Below, piece after piece: positions 36,801-49,621 of a DNA stretch of 64,000 nt. Made by a program: the position numbers and the translations under genes. Numbering within the stretch: the stretch's first letter is position 1; each line of letters begins with the position of its first letter. The notes under the pieces were generated by a model. The model ran no database searches. It saw only the letters and a list, made by a program, of their open reading frames with translations, and had not been told where the DNA came from. Source of the stretch: Cladocopium goreaui (lineage: Eukaryota; Sar; Dinophyceae; Suessiales; Symbiodiniaceae); assembly GCA_947184155.2 (NCBI GenBank), contig CAMXCT020000506.1, forward strand, positions 167,501-231,500. Direction: 5' to 3'.

Positions 36801-37432
36801 CCTACCCTAGCTATGCACACACACGGACACAAATGTGTTATGCATACAATATGTCTCCTTTGCTTCTAAACCCAGGATATTTCCTGGGCTTGAGGGTAAA
36901 CCTTGGTTTTACCAATCATATTGGGGTAAAACTTGATTTTACCCTTGGTTTTACCCCGAAAAACATGGGTTTACCCCTAAACCTTCATTTTCTACCACTT
37001 TTCCCCGCAGCCAAGCACGGTTTTGCAGTGTTAGGTTCGTGCTTGGCTGGCTCAATCGAGGTGAATACATATTTTTGCTTTAAGTATGAACATGTATACG
37101 TAAATGAGTTTGCATATAAGCCAAACCGATGCAAACCCAACCAAAACCATGGATATTCTCCTATTCGTGCTTGGCTGGCTCAATCGAGGGGAATACATAT
37201 TTTTGCTTTAAGTATGAACATTTATACGTAAATGAGTTTGCACATAAGCCAAACCGATGCAAACCCAACCAAAACCACGGATATTCTCCTACCATCGCTT
37301 CTATACATACATATATCCAGTGCAGAATGTTCAAATGGGGTATGTGTGTTTAGTGTGTTTTTGTGTATAGAAACACGCACGCACGTAGGTGTGTTCAAAC
37401 AGGTGTGTTGTTGGCTCGCTCCAGCTGGTCCG
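33884..37432 (+). other. Mostly non-coding stretch
   Basis: Only AT-rich tracts, a degenerate ATCTAC/ATATCC run at about 36290-36390 and GGTTTTACC-rich sequence at about 36890-36990 were found. A short GC-rich open segment at about 36050-36180, with the words HGTPGR and RHGTPDGTIGAW, is a weak exon candidate. The 128-bp tandem duplication at 37036-37291 is listed separately. Confidence 0.45.
37036..37291 (+). repeat. 128-bp tandem duplication
   Basis: Two adjacent copies start at 37036 and 37164 with TTCGTGCTTGGCTGGCTCAA. They differ at only a handful of bases, which indicates a recent local duplication. No coding role is evident. Confidence 0.9.
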
Positions 37433-38148: not shown

Positions 38149-38255
38149 TGTTTCTTTGCTTGGAACTTGTGGAGAGCAAGTAATGTGTTGACGATATAGT
38201 TGCCAAAATGGCTATGGCTCAAGCTGTTCCCCCTGCGATCCAATACTTTCGAAAA
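38149..38255 (+). repeat. Block P, copy 1 (5' leader of unit 1)
   Basis: This 107-bp block, starting TGTTTCTTTGCTTGGAACTT, matches P2 at 44562-44676 except for an 8-bp deletion in the spliced-leader-like palindrome. It ends in CAATACTTTCGAAAA. An A-rich run lies immediately upstream. Confidence 0.9.
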
Positions 38256-38282
38256 ACACGCTCCGATCCTTTTGTTTTGTCC

Positions 38283-41200
38283 ATGGCGGCTTCTAGTCCA
38301 GTGGCTAGCGAGACTGGCACCGTGGGCTCCTTCTCGTTGATTGGGACGGAGTTGGACGCAGGGGATGATTACATGGTTCTTTCCACCCAGGGGACCGAGG
38401 CTGCGCCGGCCGAGGTTACGACAGAGATTGAAGATGATCCCGCCATCACCAGGGAGACTCTGGCTTCGCAGCTCCATGAGATGGAGAAAGTGATGGCAAA
38501 CTTGGGTTTGGAACCCAAGCTGGAGACAAGTGTGGAATCGTCAAGTGGGCCACCCCCGTCGGGGTTCGTTCATGCAGAGGCAAAGATTCAGACCCAGACA
38601 GCACGGGCCTTAGAGAAGGAGACGTTGACACTCCACATGGATCCGACCACAGAGACCTTCACCATCGAAGGCTGGGCACCTTTGATTCCGGCCCTGCCTC
38701 ACTCGGCTGCCAAGTATTTCAGAGACATTACGCATGGTGAGCTGCATTCCCTTTTGGATGCTTTCCGCAGTTCTCCATGGACGGCATCCTTGGTGGTCAA
38801 GATCGCAGAGGTTTACCACATTTCGAAGCGCGAGGCTGTCCACACACAGATGTTGAAACTCCGGCACACCACTCAGCGTGGGGGATCCATGGTGAATTTG
38901 AAAGAGAAGGACCCTGGAACTTCTCCGCAATTAGTCTGTTCTGATTGCAATGCACCGTGGGGTCAGTTATCCAAATGTTTGCTTTGTCAAGGCTCTCAGC
39001 CTGTTGACCTGTCAATGGCACCTTTGTCAGTAATTGAGGTGGCCGGCCAGTCCTGGCAACTTAGGCTCACTGAGGCGGGACCGACTTGGGTCCCCACAGA
39101 TACTAAGGTTACTAAGGCCTCAGGCTTTGTGGAAGTGGGAGATCTTGGCCGACCTCCCCCTGCGGCAGCTTCGGGCGCCGATACGGGGCTGGTTAGCTTT
39201 TCGGAGCAAGTTCCTGCCTCCCAGCGCATGACACTGCAGCAGCACGTGGTGGCTTTTGGGCAGGACGATATCTTTCATCCAGATGGCGAACGCCCCCCCA
39301 CTATGGATGATCGAGACTCTACTCAAACTGCTGTGATCTTCCACCCCAAGACCATTGAACTGATGCGTTTCAAGGTGGACTTGCTGGCCACCCCAGAAGA
39401 AGAGCTTACGGAAGCGGCACAGGAGGCCAAGCGGAGGAAGAAGGAAATTCAACACCAGCAAGAGACTGTGGCGATGGATGATGAGCTGCATACACTGACT
39501 GCCATCCAGCAGGGTGCACAGGAAACCCAGAATCCGGTCAGTGCCAAGATGCTCCGCCACGCTGACCTCCAGCAGTTCAGGTCCTACCTCAAAAGAAAAC
39601 ATGAAGAAAGTGGCCTCACCTCCTCCTACGAGGCTTTGGTGGCGGCCCAAACCACACAGGAGAGAGCGGCAGCCGCCAACAAGGCACTGGACACAGAGTT
39701 CAGGGATCGACGCAAGGCCCTCAAGCCCATTGAAGTGGCGTCCTTTTCACTGTGGACACCGGCCCTGCAAGAAGCATGGCAGAACAACCTCTTCGCGCCG
39801 GCCATGGGCCCTCAGGGCCCGGAACAATTTGACATGGAGGCACTGAAGCAACCCTACCTCCGAATGAAAGAACTCATCAAGGATAACAAGCCTCCGCTTT
39901 CCCAAGACCGCCTCATGACGGAGTTCCCCAAGACACAACTCGACATGTACACCACGGGGACGGAGATGATATCTTCCCAAGAGGCCCAGTTAGCACGACT
40001 CCTTCCGCCGGACAGCCTGGAACGCAAGTACGCAATCCTTGACTCCATCTTGCAGTACCACAAAGGTGAAGTCAGAGCCTGGGGCGGAGAGTGGGAACTG
40101 CGACAGGGCCCGCTCACGGCACCTGCCTGGGCGAAACCGGCACCCACGACTGAGGTCTTGGCTTTGGAACTCAGGACAAACCCGCTGGGCACCTCCTTCT
40201 ACACGCCCACAACCTACACAGAACAGGTGGTCCTGCAACAGATTTCCGAGGGCAAGCGACCCGCCTTGGACAAGATCATTGGCTTCTTCTGGGCTCCGGG
40301 GACGGCGGTAGCTTCTGGCACCGACGACACCCACCTGGTCCGGAGGGTGCAATCATGGGACCTTCCTTCAATGATCACGATGCTTGGACAGTCCTGGACG
40401 TTCAAGGAGCTCTACCAGGCTTGGTGTGGTATGCCGCTGATCGTCAAACCGATGCGCAGAGGGCATGGGGAAGGCATCCGCCAGAAGAAGATGGCAGAGT
40501 TGGCGGCACACCGGCAGAGGACTTCAGAGATCAAGTCCTTCCTCACTAGTGTGGGCCTCCGGTTTCCCCAATCACAACATGAAATCAAGCTGCTCTACAA
40601 GGAAATCGGCAGCTTTTTGGCTGCCTCGGTTTTCTTAGCCAGAACCCCAGCGGTGGTCTTGGACTTGCCCGAGCAGGACATCCAGGACACAAAGGAGCAG
40701 CTCCGTTTTCGAGCGGTTTGTGATGAGCGCATCACCTTGCCCTTGGATGCTTTAAGACAGCTCCCGGACGTCTTCCAGGCGCTGTCAGCCACTCTGGGGG
40801 CCCACAGCATGGTGCAAGTGCAAGTTGCCTGGCGGTGCAACTGTGAACTATGGTGGGTTGCCCTGGTTCCCCATGAGAAGGCGGAGAGCTTTTATTGCCG
40901 TCTGGGCTACTCCCAGGCAGAGATTGATGGCTTCCTGAAGACTGCGCTGGAACCGGAGGCTCTGCAGGCGACTACGGTAGCTTCGGGCACCGGTAAGTAC
41001 CCAGAGCTCTCCTTGGAGAACGTGGTGTCCATATGCAGCCCCAAGTACAAGAGGGAGCACTACGGCCACCGGGGAGTCCATGCTTTTTGGGGCCGCACGG
41101 ATTGCGGGCTCATCCTCAGCAGCATCAGTCCATGGGAACTGAAGACGAAGGAGGCTGGAGTGACTCGTGGAGGATGGGTCTGCAAGGCCTGCCAGGGCTT

Positions 41201-41543
41201 TTGGCGACAAGGGAAAGGAGCTTCCCGCTTTGTCCAATTGCTTGGAGAACACCGGGGAGTCAAAGTCAATCTCCAACTCATCTTGGATGAGCCACCCCAA
41301 CAGCTGTATAACAGCTGGGTGAAGTCAAGGCTTGAGTACTACAAGCGAGTGGAGCCGATTGCGGCCCCGCGAGATGTGGCCTTGCAAGTTGACCCTGACC
41401 ACACCCAACGCTTGAAGTTTTCTTGCCAGAATGGCCATGCCAATGTCTCCAACGCCATTTGGTCGGTCCTGCTGAGCAACCCTGACCTCGAGGGCCTGCA
41501 GAAGATCAACGCGCTGGCAGCGAGCAGAGTCCGGCCTACCTGA
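38283..41543 (+). CDS. Unit 1 ORF1: large protein of unknown function
   Basis: The ATG at 38283 (MAASSPVASETGTVG) is chosen because unit 2 gag starts at the equivalent spot after block P. The frame also opens at an ATG inside P (38208). The product has about 1,086 residues. A CSDCNAPWGQLSKCLLC zinc-ribbon-like knuckle lies near residues 220-240. A charged helical region (EEELTEAAQEAKRRKKEI) comes near 380. A second pair of cysteines (CKACQGFW) lies near 965. No enzyme motif is recognised. Its place before the recombinase suggests a structural or nucleic-acid-binding role. Three hairpin-motif copies lie inside the frame. No stops interrupt it, which suggests selection or a young copy. Confidence 0.7.
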   Translation: MAASSPVASETGTVGSFSLIGTELDAGDDYMVLSTQGTEAAPAEVTTEIEDDPAITRETLASQLHEMEKVMANLGLEPKLETSVESSSGPPPSGFVHAEAKIQTQTARALEKETLTLHMDPTTETFTIEGWAPLIPALPHSAAKYFRDITHGELHSLLDAFRSSPWTASLVVKIAEVYHISKREAVHTQMLKLRHTTQRGGSMVNLKEKDPGTSPQLVCSDCNAPWGQLSKCLLCQGSQPVDLSMAPLSVIEVAGQSWQLRLTEAGPTWVPTDTKVTKASGFVEVGDLGRPPPAAASGADTGLVSFSEQVPASQRMTLQQHVVAFGQDDIFHPDGERPPTMDDRDSTQTAVIFHPKTIELMRFKVDLLATPEEELTEAAQEAKRRKKEIQHQQETVAMDDELHTLTAIQQGAQETQNPVSAKMLRHADLQQFRSYLKRKHEESGLTSSYEALVAAQTTQERAAAANKALDTEFRDRRKALKPIEVASFSLWTPALQEAWQNNLFAPAMGPQGPEQFDMEALKQPYLRMKELIKDNKPPLSQDRLMTEFPKTQLDMYTTGTEMISSQEAQLARLLPPDSLERKYAILDSILQYHKGEVRAWGGEWELRQGPLTAPAWAKPAPTTEVLALELRTNPLGTSFYTPTTYTEQVVLQQISEGKRPALDKIIGFFWAPGTAVASGTDDTHLVRRVQSWDLPSMITMLGQSWTFKELYQAWCGMPLIVKPMRRGHGEGIRQKKMAELAAHRQRTSEIKSFLTSVGLRFPQSQHEIKLLYKEIGSFLAASVFLARTPAVVLDLPEQDIQDTKEQLRFRAVCDERITLPLDALRQLPDVFQALSATLGAHSMVQVQVAWRCNCELWWVALVPHEKAESFYCRLGYSQAEIDGFLKTALEPEALQATTVASGTGKYPELSLENVVSICSPKYKREHYGHRGVHAFWGRTDCGLILSSISPWELKTKEAGVTRGGWVCKACQGFWRQGKGASRFVQLLGEHRGVKVNLQLILDEPPQQLYNSWVKSRLEYYKRVEPIAAPRDVALQVDPDHTQRLKFSCQNGHANVSNAIWSVLLSNPDLEGLQKINALAASRVRPT
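39164..39179 (+). other. Hairpin motif 1 (compensatory variant)
   Basis: The sequence is GGCAGCTTCGGGCGCC. GGC-GC pairs with GC-GCC around a TTCGG loop, with one bulged A. Relative to the other copies, T to C on the left arm is matched by A to G on the right arm. It lies inside ORF1 and codes AAASGA. Confidence 0.6.
40307..40322 (+). other. Hairpin motif 2
   Basis: The sequence is GGTAGCTTCTGGCACC with loop TTCTG. It lies inside ORF1 and is read as VASGT. Confidence 0.65.
40976..40991 (+). other. Hairpin motif 3
   Basis: The sequence is GGTAGCTTCGGGCACC with loop TTCGG. It lies inside ORF1 and is read as VASGT in the same phase as copy 2. Confidence 0.65.
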
Positions 41544-41587
41544 GAGTAGAGTTTTTGCGAAGGGCTGTTTTACTGACCTGGTGGCCT

Positions 41588-41603
41588 GGTAGCGTCTTGC
41601 ACC
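41588..41603 (+). other. Hairpin motif 4 (after ORF1 stop)
   Basis: The sequence is GGTAGCGTCTTGCACC with loop GTCTT. It is non-coding and starts 45 nt after the ORF1 stop. Confidence 0.65.
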
Positions 41604-42021
41604 AACGTCACCACTCGGTTCTGCAGACACCTTCTCCTTTTGTATGAATATCATTGGTTGCGCACCACGACAAGGGCCAAGACAGGGGCCAGACCGCTGG
41701 GATGCCAGCTCACACAGTGAAAAAGGGAAACCTGCATGTGGCTGCCTCAGAATCATTTACAGCACACTGCTGTTTGACCATTGCTGTGTTTTACCGTGTT
41801 TGACCTTGGTTTGATGTTTTTGTTATCCTTTCGGGCTCCGCCCATTACGCTGATGTGACTGATGTCCATGTGACTTGCACTCAGTTCTGTCCAATTGCAA
41901 CCCGGATAGTTTTTCCTGGGCTTCGGTGTTGTTCTTCCAGCTTGCTTTTTCATGTGTTAGTGCTCCGCACACCCGCAGTACCCTTTTGGGCCAGGCTTGG
42001 CCATAGTAGAGTCGGGACATC

Positions 42022-44261
42022 ATGGAACCCGATCTGGTGCGTAGAACACCGTTTGGCCTGGCAATGGTTCGGCTCCCGGAACACATGCGAGATAGCCTGC
42101 TGGACCATGGAATCTTCCCCACACAAACGGAAGGGGAGTTGTTCATGCAGCTCTGCATGCAACAAGTGCCACCGGACCATCCGGAGGCCATGGATGGGGG
42201 AACCTGGACCTCTCGGGTCCACCCCAGCAATGACATCGACCCAATGAACGTGGCTCACAGTAACTCCATGATGGTGGCTACCACGCCCTGGATGGAAGAC
42301 TTTGTGGCAGACTGCATGAACCGGGTGCCACAACCAGCGCCCCCAGAAGAAAGAGATAGGACCTACGATGCATGTTTCAGCCTCTTCACTTTGATTGCGG
42401 GTGCACCAGATTCAGCCTTCCACACACCCCTTCAACAGCAACAGGAAAGTATGGACCGGGCGAGATGGCGAGCCTTTCATTCACGGCCTCCCATAATGGC
42501 CATTGTGGAGGCCAAATGGCGGCACTGGAAGCCTGGGCGACTCAAGGAAGAGTCGGCGACAACCCAAAGGAAGTTAGAGCTCCACCTCAGAGACCGCTGG
42601 GCAGAAAGGATCATTGGGCTCCTCCTGCCCTTTGCCAAAGACATCCCTTACCTCCATGCGGTCCACGGGGACAATGTTCACCAGGAATACTTGGACCTCC
42701 TTGGAGACACCAGGTTCAGGACCTTGCGTATTCATTGCCTTTGCTTTGAGAGCATCCAGAAATTGGGCTTCAACACAATTCCTTGGAAAGAAAGTGATAT
42801 TAGATCTCTTCTGAACACCCTGAGGGACCAGGAGATCACACCACACAAACTCCAAGGGATATGGAACACCCTAAGATGGTTCTCGGCCAGGTTTGGCCTC
42901 CTTGACCCTGACAGTCTCGAACGCCTCAAGGCAAAAAGGAAGACCATCCAAGAAGGCCTGGTGGAGACCAACATCAAGCCTCAGCGCAAAGCCCAGCTGC
43001 CTTCCAAAGAAGTAATCATGCTTCTGGAAAAGGTTGCATCGGGCGCAGATCCCACTGGCCCAACGACAGCCAAGAGTACCCTGGACAGATACATCTGCGC
43101 CATGGCCAGGTTTCAGGTTGCCTGCAGCGCTCGGTTCAACGACCTGCAGCATACCAGCCCCGGGGGTTACAAGCTCACAGAGACAACACTGGAGCTTCAA
43201 GCCTGGCAGACGAAGACGGTGAGCGCCTTCAGGATCAAGAAGAACCCGGTGCCACTGATTGCACCACTTTACTCCTTCACAGGTTTGGACTGGTGGTCCA
43301 TACTCCCCCAAGCCTGGGACCGCTTGATTGCCCAGGACAGTTCAAGGACATGGACTACCTCATCCCAACAGTCAGCTCTGACTTCACGGGCCTGATTCCC
43401 CGACCGGGACAGGCAGATCGGACCCTCCGATGGTTGAAGGATGCCCTTCATCGTCAAGGAACACTGGAGAGCTCAGCATTCAGACCCCTGAGTTGGCACA
43501 GTTTCCGCGTCTTCATCCCGGACTGTGCATACCAACTGGGTATGCCACGTGATCAACGTCAATACCTGGGCAACTGGACGACCGAGAGCACCGCTGACAT
43601 TTACACCAGAGAAAAACGGAAGGTTGTCCAGAGAGCTTGGACTGCCGTGGCAGATAAACTGGGGAAGCTCGACTTGACGGGGGCCAAGACAGTCCCCATT
43701 GACCTGGACCACAGAGACTGGGACACGGAGATCCTCGAATTGGACCCATCGCCCCCGAGGGACAGTCCAGACAAGTCAGGATCGCCTCCACTCAAATCCA
43801 GGAGGCAGGCCCTTGCCGAGAAGCAGGCGGCCTCTCCAGACTCCTCGACAGGGAGCTGGCAGAAGTTATCATGGTCCCCGGGCCTCCCAGAATCTACACC
43901 ACGGGGGGGCTCCCTCCGAGTGGTTAGTGCCTCCAAGGTCAATCGATCCACTGGACTCATGAACATCCACCTCCTAAACCAGGATGGGAAGGCGGTGGGT
44001 TGTGGATGGCAACCATCAGCTTCCAAAGCTCTTGACCTGAATCCGGAGGACTACAGGCAAGAACCTCACAGATATGCAAAGTGTACCAGGTGCTTCAAGT
44101 CGCATGATTTTCCATCAGGCTGGGGGAACACACACCAGGTTGAACCTGCCAGCACCTCAGATTCGGACTCCGACGCCCTGAGCTCAGACCTCTTCTCAGA
44201 TGATGCCAATGACACAGCGTCGGATGATGACAAGCTCCCAGCTGGGACCCTAGTCAGGTAG
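42022..44261 (+). CDS. Unit 1 tyrosine recombinase (one frameshift)
   Basis: The first frame (42022-43395, from MEPDLVRRTPFGLAMVRLPE) carries the N-terminal and core-binding regions and the first catalytic Arg (CSARFNDLQH, nt ~43132). Coding continues in the -1 frame from about 43335 to 44261, with HSFR (His ~43497, Arg ~43506), GNW (~43575) and the nucleophilic-type Tyr in DIYTRE (~43602). The order R...HxxR...W...Y is that of tyrosine recombinases, which integrate circular DNA. The C-terminal 200 residues are Ser/Pro/Asp-rich. The frame change could be a mutation or a programmed -1 shift; no good slippery heptamer was seen. ORF1 is in a different frame 478 nt upstream. Confidence 0.8.
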
Positions 44262-44286
44262 ACAATTGAGGGGGCCCTCTTTCCAC

Positions 44287-44303
44287 GGTTAGCTTCTGGC
44301 ACC
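44287..44303 (+). other. Hairpin motif 5 (after YR stop)
   Basis: The sequence is GGTTAGCTTCTGGCACC, with a two-base bulge. It starts 26 nt after the recombinase stop codon. Confidence 0.55.
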
Positions 44304-44376
44304 GAGGGAGGGGTCCTACCTTTGGTCGGGCTCCATCCTTCGGTTTGGCGTGGTGGTGTCACCCGACCTTCGGTGT

Positions 44377-44560
44377 GGGTGGATTTTGACGTGTGACACC
44401 ACCACTGCATTTCAGAGTTTCTGTGAAACCATTTGTGATGGATGCGATTGGCATCTGACAGAAACACAGCCGCAAAGCCAACTGCATAACAAAAGGTGCT
44501 GACTGACCGATGCAGTTGCTTTGTTCCGTTTCTGTCATTTTCAATTCTATTCGGGAACAC
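44377..44560 (+). repeat. Block Q, copy 1 (3' end of unit 1)
   Basis: This 184-bp block is identical to 49438-49621. It starts GGGTGGATTTTGACGTGTGA and ends TATTCGGGAACAC, and is followed one base later by block P of unit 2. Perfect identity suggests recent insertion or ongoing homogenisation. Confidence 0.95.
44456..44537 (+). other. Long hairpin in block Q (copy 1)
   Basis: The outer arms TGACAGAAAC (44456-44465) and GTTTCTGTCA (44528-44537) pair perfectly. The inner arms (44473-44487 with 44510-44523) form 14 pairs with a single bulged C: CAAAGC-C-AACTGCAT against ATGCAGTTGCTTTG. The apical loop is about 22 nt. The structure ends 23 nt before the end of Q. Confidence 0.75.
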
Positions 44561-44561
44561 T

Positions 44562-44676
44562 TGTTTCTTTGCTTGGAACTTGTGGAGAGCAAGTAATGTG
44601 TTGACGATATAGTTGCCAAAATGGCTATGCCATTTTGGCTCAAGCTGTTCCCCCTGCGATCCAATACTTTCGAAAA
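44562..44676 (+). repeat. Block P, copy 2 (5' leader of unit 2)
   Basis: This 115-bp copy is complete over the palindrome that is shortened in P1. An ATG inside it (44621) opens a short upstream ORF that overlaps the gag start. Confidence 0.9.
44615..44644 (+). promoter_or_regulatory. Spliced-leader-like palindrome in block P
   Basis: GCCAAAATGGC (44615-44625), a TAT spacer and its exact reverse complement (44629-44639) form an 11-bp inverted repeat. The right part, GCCATTTTGGCTCAAG (44629-44644), is identical to the last 16 nt of the 22-nt dinoflagellate spliced leader as I remember it. P1 has lost 8 bp of it. Confidence 0.65.
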
Positions 44677-44705
44677 CCCACCCACCACTGCCCTACTTTT
44701 CGAAC

Positions 44706-46049
44706 ATGGCGGCGGTGCCTGATGTATTGGATTCCCCACCTGATGCGGTGCCTGAGCAATATAAGGATCAGGTGGAATTGCTTCACCAACAAGTCCTGAC
44801 TATCTTCCAGTCCAAGGAGATTCCATACTTCATCATGGCAAGGATGGCATCAGATGGCTACCGCTCAGTGGAAGACCTTGCTGATCGATGGCCCACCATC
44901 ACGGAGGCCCGGAACAACTCCCCAGCAGACCTCCAGTTCCGTCACACAGACCGTGGGGGAGCTTTGATCACACAAGAGAAGACAAATCACCTGGCCATGC
45001 GCATCTCACAATGTGTCCGTCAAGCACAACAGTTGCTGGGCACTGGGGGCCTGAACCAGGGCCGAGTGGGGCCTGCAGGGCTACTGCCGACGACGTCTCA
45101 GGCGGCGCCCTCACTGGATGCCCTGTGTGATCGACGCCAGCTCCTGCAGACATGGACGGTGGTCGTTCAGCTCCCACTCCCACGATTGGAGGATCAAGGC
45201 TCCGATGCCTTGTTGAAGAAACAGTTCAAACTCTGTGCGCAAGGAGAAGTTGGTTGGATTGCCAGCAAGTACATCATATCAGCCTTACCAGACCAGGATG
45301 AGCGGCCTATCAAGACCACCAAGAAGGTGACAGTCGATGGATGGGAAAAGGAAGAAGAGGAGGAGACACGGAAACTCCCAACTACGAGGCGTCAGTTGGA
45401 GCACATGCACCTGGTCTTTCGAACCAACCTCCTCATGGCCATCCTCTCTTTTCCCAGCATGCCGAAGCTGAACATCACCCATAGGGACCTAGAGGACTGG
45501 TACCGATGGTTCTGGGGGAAAGACATTGCGGACAGGCGACCGCCCCCCAGTGAACAAGTTCTCCTCTACGCTGAAAGGAACGCATGGAGGGAGATCCACA
45601 ACTTGGTCTACGGGGGACTGGGCCTCAAGGAGGCCATGGCCCAACTACGTCAGGACACCCTGTTTTGGACCAGAGAGGTCTATGAGTCTGTCGCCCGGCA
45701 GAAAGGCACCAAAGGCTCTGGGCCTGACTCCCCAACACGACCAGCCAAGTCAAAGGGACGCCAACCTTCATGGTCACCAACTCAGCCACAATGGAACAAA
45801 CAAAAAGGGTCACCCAAAGGGGGTAAGGCCAAAGGGGCCATGGGATCCGGAAAAGGGAAGGACTCTGAATGGCCTTCAAACTGGGCTAAGATCTCACCCA
45901 AGGGAGTGCAGTACTGCCGTGACCACTTCCTCAAGAAGAAATGTCCCGGGAACTGTGGACGCTCCCACAACTGTCCGGTCCTCAAGAATGGCTGGGTATG
46001 CAACGCCGCGCCCTCAGAACACACCCCAGAGCAATGCCCACACCGTTGA
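44706..46049 (+). CDS. Unit 2 gag-like protein with CCCH zinc finger
   Basis: The ATG at 44706 (MAAVPDVLDSPPDAVPEQYK) is the first good start after block P; the frame is open a little further upstream only through a non-ATG codon. The product has 447 residues: a helical N-terminal half, then DWYRWFWGKDIADRR near residue 265, then a basic low-complexity stretch (QKGSPKGGKAKGAMGSGKGK, about 365-385). It ends with a CCCH-type zinc finger, YCRDHFLKKKCPGNCGRSH, followed by further cysteines. This is a nucleocapsid-like layout that would bind element RNA. The stop is TGA (46047-46049). The same frame then stays open into the next two coding segments, so gag and pol are separated only by single stop codons. 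Confidence 0.75.
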   Translation: MAAVPDVLDSPPDAVPEQYKDQVELLHQQVLTIFQSKEIPYFIMARMASDGYRSVEDLADRWPTITEARNNSPADLQFRHTDRGGALITQEKTNHLAMRISQCVRQAQQLLGTGGLNQGRVGPAGLLPTTSQAAPSLDALCDRRQLLQTWTVVVQLPLPRLEDQGSDALLKKQFKLCAQGEVGWIASKYIISALPDQDERPIKTTKKVTVDGWEKEEEEETRKLPTTRRQLEHMHLVFRTNLLMAILSFPSMPKLNITHRDLEDWYRWFWGKDIADRRPPPSEQVLLYAERNAWREIHNLVYGGLGLKEAMAQLRQDTLFWTREVYESVARQKGTKGSGPDSPTRPAKSKGRQPSWSPTQPQWNKQKGSPKGGKAKGAMGSGKGKDSEWPSNWAKISPKGVQYCRDHFLKKKCPGNCGRSHNCPVLKNGWVCNAAPSEHTPEQCPHR

Positions 46050-46063
46050 CTCCTGGCGGACCC

Positions 46064-46079
46064 GGTAGCGTCTTGCACC
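46064..46079 (+). other. Hairpin motif 6 (after gag stop)
   Basis: The sequence is GGTAGCGTCTTGCACC, starting 15 nt after the gag TGA. If the TGA is read through, it codes VASCT in the same frame. Confidence 0.65.
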
Positions 46080-46094
46080 GATCACCCACCAGGG

Positions 46095-46838
46095 TTGATG
46101 GACACCCCAACACCTGTCAAAAACCAAGCAACAACGGAACCGGGGGGGCCTCCCCCAGGTTACCCTAACGACACAAGCACACCACATTCACAACAAGAGG
46201 CCGTGGGCCGATCACTTGACACACCGGCGATCATGAATGGACAGTCCCTGCTTGGGCACTGTCCATGGCTTTCATCGGTTCCGAACAGGCTGTTGGAACG
46301 CCTTGTATGGACCACACAATCCACGGGTAGTCTCCAAGGGAGGGACATCCTACTCCTCTACACCGGCAGGAGTGACGGAGGAGCCCTGGATGACGTACTC
46401 ATCCAACAACGCCAGGACCTGGCCCCCAGGCTCCTTGCCGTGGACATCCTGAGGCCACCAGAAAAGGGCCCCAACGACATATTGGATGATGAGTTTTACT
46501 CAACTCTCTACTGCGCCGCCGCGAGGGGCCAGTTGTCATTTGTGGGGGGCGGCCCCAACTGCCGGACCTGGAGCATCCTACGATGGTTCCCAAAGCCTGG
46601 AGCGCCCAGGCCTGTACGAGGACGGGATCCCTCCCAGACATGGGGCCTTGACTCAAACTCCCTGGAAGAACAGTTGGACACAGACAAGGACAGTATCCTT
46701 CTGCTCCGGCAAATGGTCATCACTGCCCTAGCCTCCAAAGCCAGGCAAAACACAGGATTCCACTCGTTCTTGGAACACCCTCGTGACCCAGCTGAGTGTA
46801 GTAGGGCTCCAACGGCGACAAAATGCTCATCGATATAA
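46095..46838 (+). CDS. Unit 2 C5-methyltransferase-like domain
   Basis: This 247-codon frame is in phase with gag upstream and RT downstream. ILLLYTGRSDGGALDDVLI (nt ~46345) resembles motif I of cytosine-C5 methyltransferases. RLLAVDIL follows with an acidic residue in the motif II position. GGGPNCRTWSILRWF (~46547) resembles motif IV, with the catalytic Cys kept. FLEHPRDPAE (~46770) resembles motif VI (normally ENV). A TAA at 46836 interrupts the domain: VYQEWAKEV and later text in the same frame continue it to about 47010. Retroelement-borne cytosine methyltransferases have been reported in dinoflagellates. Activity here is unproven, since target-recognition motifs were not identified. The domain might self-methylate element DNA or be a degenerate fold. 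Confidence 0.55.
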   Translation: MMDTPTPVKNQATTEPGGPPPGYPNDTSTPHSQQEAVGRSLDTPAIMNGQSLLGHCPWLSSVPNRLLERLVWTTQSTGSLQGRDILLLYTGRSDGGALDDVLIQQRQDLAPRLLAVDILRPPEKGPNDILDDEFYSTLYCAAARGQLSFVGGGPNCRTWSILRWFPKPGAPRPVRGRDPSQTWGLDSNSLEEQLDTDKDSILLLRQMVITALASKARQNTGFHSFLEHPRDPAECSRAPTATKCSSI

Positions 46839-47006
46839 GCCACTAGAGTCTACCAGGAGTGGGCCAAAGAGGTAAATCACTGCCAGATCCACCTGGACCA
46901 GTGCAGACTGGGACAAAGGGCACAGAAGAGTACGACCTTCTCAACGGACCTTCCAATTCACCATTGGCAAGGCCTCCAGTGCAACCACGCTGGACATTCA
47001 AGGCCA

Positions 47007-49322
47007 ATGGAGATGACCTCCCGGGACCTCAGCAGATACCCGCCAGAACTGATGACCGGGCTAGCAGCAGCAATCATCCAGAGCATTCCAAACACAGGAC
47101 ATCAACCCACCGGGTGCCAACAGGAAGGGGAGCCTCCAGGTCGGACGGACCGCTCCTCATCGGTACCCCTCTCCCAGACGATGACTTTGGATGACGACCC
47201 GATCATCGTTCAATCAGGCTTCAAGACTAGACCCTTACGGGATGGAGGAGGTAAGCCCTCAGCCGGGAGACGACCTCCCCCGCTCAGACCTCAGTCCAAG
47301 ATCAAGCACATTGGAGACTCCATTAGCCACCTGGCAAAAGGATGCGCACAGGACGTCCAACAGTCCATCAACAGTGGTGAAAGAAAACACCCGTTCCCGA
47401 AGGAACTTCTCCAGGAGACACGACGGGCCATTGCCCAAGGGATCGGGCTGGACTACCAAACCGCTGAGGAGATGGAGCCAGGCCAGCCGTTCTATCTGAA
47501 CCTCATCTCAGCCTTAGCAGAAGCTGGTGGAGATGCAGATGCAGCCTACCCCACAAGGGTGGCCAAGGGAGTCCCCTTAGGTGTCACCACACCCACCTGG
47601 ACGTCACCAGGCATATGGCCTACCAAGGAAGAACTCAAAGGAGAATCCCCTCTGTGGGAGGACCTCCTGATACCCATGGGCAGGGACAACTACCCCTCGG
47701 CAAAAGATTTCTCCTCTCAGGTTCGACAGACCTTCGTGGAGGAGGTCGATATGGGTATGGTTGAGGGCCCACTCACACAGGAGGAGGCTGCACTCCGCTG
47801 TGGATGCACCCCAGATGAACTCTGCCCAGGGCCCCTGGCAGCAATTGATGAAGGAGATAAAATCCGCACAATCTACGACGGAAGCTGGGGCCATGCAAAC
47901 TCACACATCCAACAAAACACAGTTGAGAAGACCACTGCACCCACAGTAATGGACTGTGTTCAAGCCATTCACTGGCTAACCACCATGAAGGAGAAGACAT
48001 CTGGGACGGTAGCGTCTTGCACCGACCTGGCATGGCAACCTCCACACAAACAAACCACCTGGGCACTGTTGAAAGCAGATGTCTCAAAAGCACACCGCCG
48101 CATCAAGGTCCAGTCCAACGAATGGCGCTACCAGGTAGCACAACTTGATGGTGAATGGTGGATAAACAAGGTGGGTACCTATGGTATGGCCAGCGCCCAA
48201 CTTTATTGGGGCAGAATGGCGGCACTCCTCCTCAGACTATGCTACATGATGTTTCCACACATAGACTGGGGCTTTGTGTTCGTGGACGATTTTTGTTGGC
48301 TCCTCAGGACGGACTCCGCCACTGAGGATACTGCAAAACTACTTCTCTTCTTAGCAGCCATGGGATGCCCCCTCAGTTGGCACAAGACGGTGTTATCTGA
48401 GGTCAACACCTGGTTAGGTTTCCAGGTCAATCCATGTGGACCCGTGGTCGACTTCCCTCCAGATAAGCGGAAGACACTTGAGGCACTCCTTCAGACCATT
48501 GCGGCGGGCAACACCTTCACGGTGAAGGAGATTGAGAGAGCACTGGGACGATTGAATTGGGCAACGGCAGCTTGGCCCCTCAGTCGCCCTTTTCTTCAGC
48601 CATTTTGGGCATGGAAATCCGCGACGACTACCTCAGGGAAGCCTGGCAAGCTCATACGATCCTTCTCAAAGCTTCTCCTCCAACTGCTTCACAACCCCCA
48701 GATCCAGCCCTGCCCTTATGACCCTGCCTCCAATTGGTGGGGTGCCAGTGACGCTAGTGCACACCCGGACGATGGGGCCTACATTGGGGGATGGATTGCA
48801 GATTGTGAGAACCCGTCAAAGGGCCAGACCTGGTGGTTCCATTACAAGATACCCCTCGAAGACCATCCATGGGCTCACAAGGATGGTGATCCAACCAGAC
48901 GCATTGCGACCCTCGAGATGTTTGGTACATTGATTCTTACCCACTTCCTGCTGGCTTTGAGTGGGAAATCTCTGCTTCGTACCCGTCTCAGCCTCATTTC
49001 AGACAATCAAGGCAATGTCTTTGCCCTGTTGAACCAGAAGACGAAGCACATGCCGACCTCAGCTTTCCTAATGCAGCTCATTGCCATGCTCTATGTGGCT
49101 GGGGTTCAATTGGCGCCTTCACACATGAAGCGGGACTACAACAAGTGGGCGGACGAACTCACCCACCCGAACTTCACTGGTTTTCATCCTGATCGACGAC
49201 TACCAGTGAGTGAAGCTTTTTCCCATTTTCAGTTTCTCTGGGCCCTTCTGGATGACCAGATGAGTGTCCCCACCTTTTCAGGAAATTCAAAACGTCGTAA
49301 GACCGACTCTCACGCCACCTAA
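47007..49322 (+). CDS. Unit 2 reverse transcriptase-RNase H
   Basis: The frame is open from the TAA at 46838 to the TAA at 49322; 47007 is its first ATG, but translation may enter by readthrough. RT motifs: LKADVSKAHRRI (motif A, ~48070), GTYGMASAQLYWGR (motif B, ~48175), the catalytic FVFVDDFCWLL (motif C, ~48274) and TWLGFQVN (~48411). RNase H follows: WWGASDASAH (D ~48751), ATLEMFGTLI (E ~48918), LISDNQGNVF (D ~49000) and YNKWADELTH (D ~49150). All four RNase H acidic residues are present. No protease, integrase or recombinase is attached, so integration must depend on a recombinase in trans, perhaps from unit 1. One hairpin-motif copy lies inside the RT. Confidence 0.85.
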   Translation: MEMTSRDLSRYPPELMTGLAAAIIQSIPNTGHQPTGCQQEGEPPGRTDRSSSVPLSQTMTLDDDPIIVQSGFKTRPLRDGGGKPSAGRRPPPLRPQSKIKHIGDSISHLAKGCAQDVQQSINSGERKHPFPKELLQETRRAIAQGIGLDYQTAEEMEPGQPFYLNLISALAEAGGDADAAYPTRVAKGVPLGVTTPTWTSPGIWPTKEELKGESPLWEDLLIPMGRDNYPSAKDFSSQVRQTFVEEVDMGMVEGPLTQEEAALRCGCTPDELCPGPLAAIDEGDKIRTIYDGSWGHANSHIQQNTVEKTTAPTVMDCVQAIHWLTTMKEKTSGTVASCTDLAWQPPHKQTTWALLKADVSKAHRRIKVQSNEWRYQVAQLDGEWWINKVGTYGMASAQLYWGRMAALLLRLCYMMFPHIDWGFVFVDDFCWLLRTDSATEDTAKLLLFLAAMGCPLSWHKTVLSEVNTWLGFQVNPCGPVVDFPPDKRKTLEALLQTIAAGNTFTVKEIERALGRLNWATAAWPLSRPFLQPFWAWKSATTTSGKPGKLIRSFSKLLLQLLHNPQIQPCPYDPASNWWGASDASAHPDDGAYIGGWIADCENPSKGQTWWFHYKIPLEDHPWAHKDGDPTRRIATLEMFGTLILTHFLLALSGKSLLRTRLSLISDNQGNVFALLNQKTKHMPTSAFLMQLIAMLYVAGVQLAPSHMKRDYNKWADELTHPNFTGFHPDRRLPVSEAFSHFQFLWALLDDQMSVPTFSGNSKRRKTDSHAT
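48008..48023 (+). other. Hairpin motif 7
   Basis: The sequence is GGTAGCGTCTTGCACC inside the RT frame, read as VASCT. It is the same sequence as copies 4 and 6, which lie in intergenic positions. Confidence 0.65.
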
Positions 49323-49437
49323 GGTCCTTCGGGAGCCAGGTGGTTGCGGCTGACTTTCTGGTGTACAGTGGTGTTTTCCCACCTACAACCTTCTTTTTCC
49401 TTTCCTTACTTGCGCGGGCTACACGCTCCGGCGGGTT

Positions 49438-49621
49438 GGGTGGATTTTGACGTGTGACACCACCACTGCATTTCAGAGTTTCTGTGAAACCATTTGTGAT
49501 GGATGCGATTGGCATCTGACAGAAACACAGCCGCAAAGCCAACTGCATAACAAAAGGTGCTGACTGACCGATGCAGTTGCTTTGTTCCGTTTCTGTCATT
49601 TTCAATTCTATTCGGGAACAC
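49438..49621 (+). repeat. Block Q, copy 2 (3' end of unit 2)
   Basis: Identical over 184 bp to copy 1, starting 116 nt after the RT stop. Its own copy of the long hairpin lies at 49517-49598. The flank AACAAAAACAAAATG follows. Confidence 0.95.

Follow-up and report, generated by a model that had tools for sequence, protein, structure and literature searches.

Retrotransposons of the order DIRS encode a tyrosine recombinase (YR) together with a reverse transcriptase (RT) and RNase H. Those that most resemble the element described here are Kangaroo of Volvox and the nematode form of Pat1, both of the PAT group, whose internal repeats separate MT from YR according to the available text of the description (PMC4157794). 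A distribution of recombinase and RT over different arms is therefore already known. In dinoflagellates, SymbioDIRS-Dnmt3 was described from Symbiodinium in two structures with a shuffled order of the integrase and Pol ORFs (de Mendoza et al. 2018; PMC5890265, accessible part). Like the present element, it is a YR retrotransposon of a dinoflagellate in which YR has an ORF of its own and both A and B repeats are present; its pol includes a methyltransferase, and the legend text gives the order A-coding region-B-A-B. Ngaro and VIPER elements have the structure A1-[ORFs]-B1A2B2, and the consulted parts of the descriptions mention no ORFs between A2 and B2 (PMC8547959, PMC6681497). DIRS1-like elements, also YR retrotransposons, are thought to pass through a circular form for which an internal copy of their ends serves as template. 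Their terminal repeats are inverted, and complementary regions are present internally, as stated in the accessible text (PMC3266345).

The window analysed here is a 64-kb stretch of DNA from Cladocopium goreaui. Positions 38149–49621 hold an element of about 11.48 kb with the order of parts P1-[ORF1, YR]-Q1-P2-[gag, MTase-like, RT-RNase H]-Q2, in which P and Q are each present twice in direct orientation (Table 1). With a tyrosine recombinase, RT and RNase H it has the enzymes of the order DIRS, and its split direct repeats (A1-B1-A2-B2) are those of PAT-like elements. It is a well-preserved two-arm YR retrotransposon and a variant within a known kind. Split direct repeats, RT-RNase H and YR are shared with Ngaro and VIPER, but gag and pol are located between A2 and B2, whereas all ORFs of Ngaro elements lie between A1 and B1; the repeats are direct, whereas the terminal repeats of DIRS1-like elements are inverted. 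Membership of the Ngaro and DIRS1-like groups was ruled out by this repeat layout. The likeness to Kangaroo and Pat1 consists in internal repeats that separate the recombinase from the RT side. The differences are (i) that the YR arm comes first, whereas the RT-MT side is first in Kangaroo and Pat1 by our own reading of the published text; (ii) that YR is on the same strand as the other ORFs, whereas it is inverted in Kangaroo by that account; (iii) that an extra ORF of 1086 aa (ORF1) precedes YR and an MTase-like region precedes RT; and (iv) that the repeats bear a relict of the host spliced leader. SymbioDIRS-Dnmt3 differs in the repeat order given in its legend and in having a recognisable Dnmt3 domain, whereas Pfam gave no match to Dnmt3 or DNA_methylase in the present pol, for which a remote similarity is possible. 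The initial annotation knew of no described element with this layout; the separation of YR and RT has a precedent in Kangaroo and Pat1, as far as the available text goes (PMC4157794). Here, the YR arm comes first.

Table 1. Features of the element, with positions in the window
Feature	Position	Strand	Remarks
P1, repeat A1, left terminus	38149..38255	+	shared sequence begins GTTTC at 38150
ORF1, 1086 aa, function unassigned	38283..41543	+	start set from other copies
Tyrosine recombinase ORF (YR)	42022..44261	+	in the window two overlapping frames, 42022-43395 and 43293-44261
Q1, repeat B1	44371..44560	+	terminates in GGGAACAC
TT at internal junction, from Q to the GTTTC start of P	44561..44562	+	
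P2, repeat A2, second leader	44562..44676	+	
Perfect 11-bp hairpin	44615..44639	+	GCCAAAATGGC-TAT-GCCATTTTGGC
Dinoflagellate spliced-leader relict (DinoRL)	44630..44644	+	CCATTTTGGCTCAAG; candidate trans-splice acceptor
gag-like ORF, 447 aa	44706..46049	+	no family match
pol, MTase-like region then RT-RNase H	46098..49322	+	in the window split, 46098-46838 and 47007-49322
Q2, repeat B2, right terminus	49432..49621	+	

The two copies of Q were 99% identical over 190 nt, and P1 and P2 shared identical blocks of 68 nt and 41 nt with a single 8-nt gap between them. The first ATG of each arm, in the context CATGGCGGC, is located 27 nt past P1 and 29 nt past P2. The two-component P-Q-P-Q structure proposed earlier, including P copies alike apart from one 8-nt gap, matching Q copies and a leader and first-start context common to both arms, was thus confirmed. 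The gap lies inside the leader relict and represents a deletion in the P1 of the window, because the seven next-best P1 matches are 7–8 nt longer (459–460 nt, compared with 452 nt for the window hit) and the gap is absent from all other P copies in a set of 40 from 21 copies of the element (see below). Two other copies in this set have deletions in P1, one of 26 nt that covers this site (C4862) and one of 9 nt elsewhere (C3002). Due to the 8-nt deletion, the ORF1 frame of the window copy is open from 38208.

Neither YR nor pol is an uninterrupted frame in the window copy. Among 19 other copies examined, YR formed a single frame of 746 aa in ten and of 750 aa in two, and pol was one frame of 1074 aa in seven; all four frames (1086, 746, 447 and 1074 aa) were uninterrupted in 4 of 20 copies examined. 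Considering only pairs with dS above 0.03, dN/dS between copies was 0.05–0.15 for ORF1, 0.03–0.08 for YR (omitting C4447, for which another frame was taken), 0.01–0.09 for gag without C51, C3527 and C515, in which local frame differences gave values of 0.17–0.61, and 0.09–0.16 for pol. All four ORFs are under purifying selection.

Pfam returned no significant family for six proteins of the window. For the recombinase, the predicted model of a 96%-identical homologue (mean pLDDT 73.8) was compared with PDB structures, and all 20 matches at E ≤ 0.001 were Cre or Cre-derived (best E = 2 × 10−5). An integrase profile was matched by 3 of 32 YR homologues and a Pfam recombinase family by none of the 32; the YR alignment had no match in Pfam, NCBIfam or the PDB sequences either. 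In this alignment, R375 is invariant, R500, W523 and Y532 are kept in at least 90% of the sequences, and the histidine position of HxxR is occupied by H or Y. We take this R/HxxR/W/Y pattern to be the catalytic motif of tyrosine recombinases. By its modelled fold, the recombinase of the YR arm is Cre-like. In the case of pol, a model from protein P0002, which is 83% identical to the RT ORF of the window (mean pLDDT 86.1), matched the RT structures of foamy virus, CaMV, Ty3 and XMRV (best E = 5 × 10−12). RVT_1 was matched by 7 of 41 pol homologues; the pol alignment found no match among PDB sequences. The model identifies RT-RNase H in pol. The 5′ region of pol is called MTase-like here on our assumption from motif resemblance, and a Pfam methyltransferase was found in none of the 41 pol homologues at E 0.01. 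The 447-aa ORF is presumably gag, judged by its position and a C-terminal Cys/His stretch. Homologues numbered 13 for ORF1 and 184 for RT, each among about 8000 scored candidates, and 102 for YR; they include proteins named Symbiodinium, Polarella and Durusdinium. A search of viral contigs with pol and YR yielded no relatives. For ORF1, there was no match of the window protein in Pfam and none of the alignment to PDB sequences. As a side observation, this ORF is under purifying selection yet has no recognised domain and few relatives.

A search of the genome assembly (1.17 Gb, 6202 contigs) showed that the element is dispersed, with differing flanks. The search gave 160 candidates for the P1/ORF1 start, 185 for the RT 3′ end and 73 for the YR 3′ end, the best 40 of each being scored. 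A set of 21 copies comprised the window and 20 fetched copies, ten of which were picked as atypical-looking and ten among the best-scoring. Twelve of the 21 align from P1 to Q2 as a single block and three more do so with internal indels. The remaining copies are (i) C3527 and C1692, which run off at contig ends; (ii) C515 and C5935, in which the 3′ part is absent within the next 5.2 kb and 4.5 kb, respectively; (iii) C1347, whose remaining repeats flank a gag-RT region that is mostly lost; and (iv) C2057, a solo RT unit (C2057:294519-299579; L019, L020) whose P and Q ends are exact and whose pol of 1074 aa is uninterrupted. This unit either inserted independently or arose when P1 and P2 recombined. 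The shared P1-to-Q2 structure is far beyond chance. For an assembly artefact or a chance tandem of two elements we found nothing in favour: the 15 P1-to-Q2 copies are on different contigs with different flanks, and among the 40 RT matches listed (best 40 of 185) there was no second Q-P junction within 9 kb after RT. Copy and junction counts rule this explanation out, and its probability is practically nil.

The repeats of a copy are more similar to each other than to those of other copies. Leaving gaps uncounted, P1 and P2 differed by 3 mismatches within copies over 19 copies, compared with 20.6 when permuted among copies; for Q1 and Q2 there were 2 mismatches over 14 copies and 29.0 when permuted (0 of 5000 permutations reached the observed value in either case). 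P1/P2 and Q1/Q2 are homogenised within copies and share copy-specific variants, and both repeats take part in replication. The divergence of the two arms was also correlated across 18 copies (r = 0.98, 0 of 5000 permutations), a value that includes the rearranged copy C3577 and is possibly inflated. The element is one dispersed unit with clean ends.

Across the genome, the start of P occurred 150 times (allowing up to 3 mismatches), the Q-P junction 53 times (52 of them exact), and the passage from P into gag 44 times. The gag/RT arm followed 52 of the 53 junctions and ORF1 none; the remaining junction (C1322) is degenerate and unreadable. Of these junctions, 41 run directly into the P-gag pattern, six further ones are composites (C472, C3527, C3607, C3702, C4867 and C2379), and five are gag-like after P (C1546, C4670, C1001, C1123 and C4224), with an altered ATG in C1001, C1123 and C4224. 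The arm order, YR arm followed by gag/RT arm, is fixed, none of the 52 readable junctions having the opposite order. Seen from the YR arm, the Q-P junction lies directly 3′ of 37 of 40 YR 3′ matches (best 40 of 73 candidates). The other three are C4862 and C5122, which have the RT arm, with the P-gag pattern following YR, but no intact Q-P junction, and C1692, which is at a contig end; a solo YR unit was found at none of the 39 informative matches. From the RT side, a junction was present upstream of 37 of the 40 RT matches listed, the exceptions being C4862, C2057 and C1490 (a split RT match without Q-P junction). Finally, 43 of the 44 P-gag starts are located behind a Q-P junction (41) or the YR arm (2), and C2057 alone is solo.

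These counts bear on a proposal of the initial annotation, that of two halves needing each other in trans. A YR unit and an RT unit with common ends would then be separately mobile, and the composite would be a co-integrate. The complete leaders on both arms would fit such units, as would the exact ends of the solo RT unit at C2057, a copy at C324 that begins directly with the gag-like leader, and the 97 of 150 P copies without Q just upstream, a number above the 53 expected from composites alone. But the solo unit can also come from recombination between P1 and P2, and it is the only solo case among 44 P-gag starts; solo YR units are missing from the 39 informative matches among the best 40 of 73, the arms diverge in a correlated way and their order is never reversed. 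The two halves are unlikely to act in trans because the junction order is fixed and only one solo RT unit was found, and we rejected a two-part genome as very improbable on the junction and solo-unit counts. The other possibility raised at the outset, one element of the form A1-B1A2-B2 with ORFs in both arms, was borne out by the P1-to-Q2 copies, the fixed order and the homogenised repeats; in none of the 21 copies did RT and YR lie within one P-Q interval.

The surplus of P copies without upstream Q is explained in part only. Those read were the ones in the 21-copy set, the eight top P1 matches and eight others. The eight others comprise what are apparently other families, some of them leading into other ORFs, as well as a gag-first start (L049) and a miniature (L051), which also counts against separately mobile units. 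In at least four P copies (L050, L052, L054 and L055) other first codons follow P, and we read these as probable other families of the same kind. P copies lacking the ORFs of the element, anticipated as a sign that P is an unrelated widespread repeat, were thus seen in part. Two further structures were observed. In L049 (C324), P extends up to the leader relict and then passes straight into a gag-like leader. The miniature L051 (C1142:133797-133967) combines a shortened P and a Q-type 3′ end (...TTTCAATTCTATTCGGGAAC) within 171 bp and has its own left flank.

An unexpected feature, absent from the initial annotation, is a relict of the dinoflagellate spliced leader in P. The motif CCATTTTGGCTCAAG is the published relict of the spliced leader DCCGTAGCCATTTTGGCTCAAG, and such relicts are common in dinoflagellate retrogenes according to the accessible texts (PMC12014239, PMC6616646 for the former; PMC12014239 for the latter). 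In the 64-kb window it occurs once, with about 0.0001 occurrences expected. Among the 40 P copies from the 21 copies of the element, it is exact in 37 and altered in three. As judged by this match, the A repeats carry a spliced-leader relict, and this is the part of our results most worth following. Papers on dinoflagellate, DIRS and tyrosine-recombinase retrotransposons and the spliced leader, covered by titles and the beginnings of abstracts and with subscription papers mostly outside this coverage, mentioned no leader relict in the ends of YR elements. One arm of the hairpin in P includes part of the relict and the other is leader complement; it is perfect in 36 of the 40 P copies, with four loop variants, and its folding had a z-score of −2.7 (2 of 200 shuffles equally good).

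Ten further P copies were chosen as being alone among the first 100 of the 150 P starts or behind doubtful junctions. They had been found by their first 34 nt, and therefore only the sequence beyond is informative. All ten match P as far as GCTCAAG, with internal losses in two of them, and at least four different sequences follow. An exact relict is present in eight of these copies and an altered one in two, whereas only four have a perfect hairpin; the leader is thus better preserved than the hairpin. Nine of the ten have an ATG, and in eight of these the first one follows 54–57 nt past the relict, two pairs among them being close relatives. The conservation of P has no sharp stop at the relict, since a C-rich run and TCGAAAA recur beyond it in other P copies. 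Three homologous proteins (P0013, P0231 and P0234), possibly from the same species as the window, read through the same leader.

Taken as a whole, these observations are probably best explained by one split-direct-repeat YR retrotransposon of about 11.48 kb that combines a leader acceptor, a switch of the cDNA and joining by the recombinase. The relict in each A repeat would be a candidate trans-splice acceptor, by which each arm may give rise to its own leader-capped mRNA. Trans-splicing would remove the first 82 nt and the new leader restore 16, so that about 66 nt would be lost on balance. Reverse transcription would yield a cDNA that ends in the leader complement; this end could switch to the identical leader in A2 and copy what remains of A2 together with the end of B1, thereby restoring the terminus and joining B2 to A1. 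The internal Q-P junction would in this way restore the 5′ end lost to trans-splicing, and the leader in P2 would also provide the gag-pol arm with its own mRNA. The recombinase would then link the cDNA form to its target, which is mostly AT-rich and would not be duplicated. The details of leader-based annealing are our own reading. Annealing between repeats was already proposed for Ngaro and PAT elements, as stated in the part of the source available (PMC6681497).

Whether the element uses host trans-splicing in its life cycle is a separate question. A working acceptor would end each repeat, two leader-capped mRNAs would be made, the leader would be reinstalled in each cycle as the annealing site of the cDNA, and the hairpin, in which the leader would lie head to head with its cDNA, would be a relic of snap-back of the leader cDNA. 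We put this forward tentatively, with somewhat less than even chances. The snap-back hairpin is its weakest part: 36 of the 40 P copies of the element have a perfect hairpin, but only 4 of 10 others do. The leader match could also be an old capture. In that case the element would be an ordinary PAT-like one, B1A2 would merely serve as replication template, and the relict would stem from one old retroposition and have no present role. Split repeats with internal repeats between the domains, as described for Kangaroo and Pat1 (PMC4157794, available text), the frequency of relicts in dinoflagellate retrogenes (PMC12014239, accessible part) and the poor preservation of the hairpin in other P copies suit this explanation; the better preserved relict in front of differing downstream leaders, the near-constant distance to the first ATG, with the reservation about close relatives, and the homologous proteins that read through the leader speak against it, and we regard it as unlikely. 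If the life cycle did involve host trans-splicing, split direct repeats would have a concrete explanation, since a transcript deprived of its 5′ end depends on a copy of the ends located internally. The internal copy would gain a second use as the leader of the second mRNA, and dinoflagellate trans-splicing would be tied directly to a mobile element.

The copies also make it testable why only one of two identical junctions appears to serve integration. A double-stranded circle would have two identical Q-P sites, and therefore both arm orders would be expected on integration. As the reverse order occurred at none of the 53 junctions, either integration does not use the internal site or it proceeds from a form other than such a circle. 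At the left end, TT precedes GTTTC in 20 of the 21 copies, the window having AT. The 17 visible right ends consist of GGGAACAC followed by varying, mostly AT-rich sequence, which begins with TT in none of them. No target-site duplication was seen by eye in the flanks of the 17 two-ended copies. The only inverted repeat pair of at least 25 nt was a 73% A/T-rich pair in the flanks. About 0.9 kb upstream of the element, the window further contains a tandem pair of 128-nt copies that are 97% identical (37036–37291).
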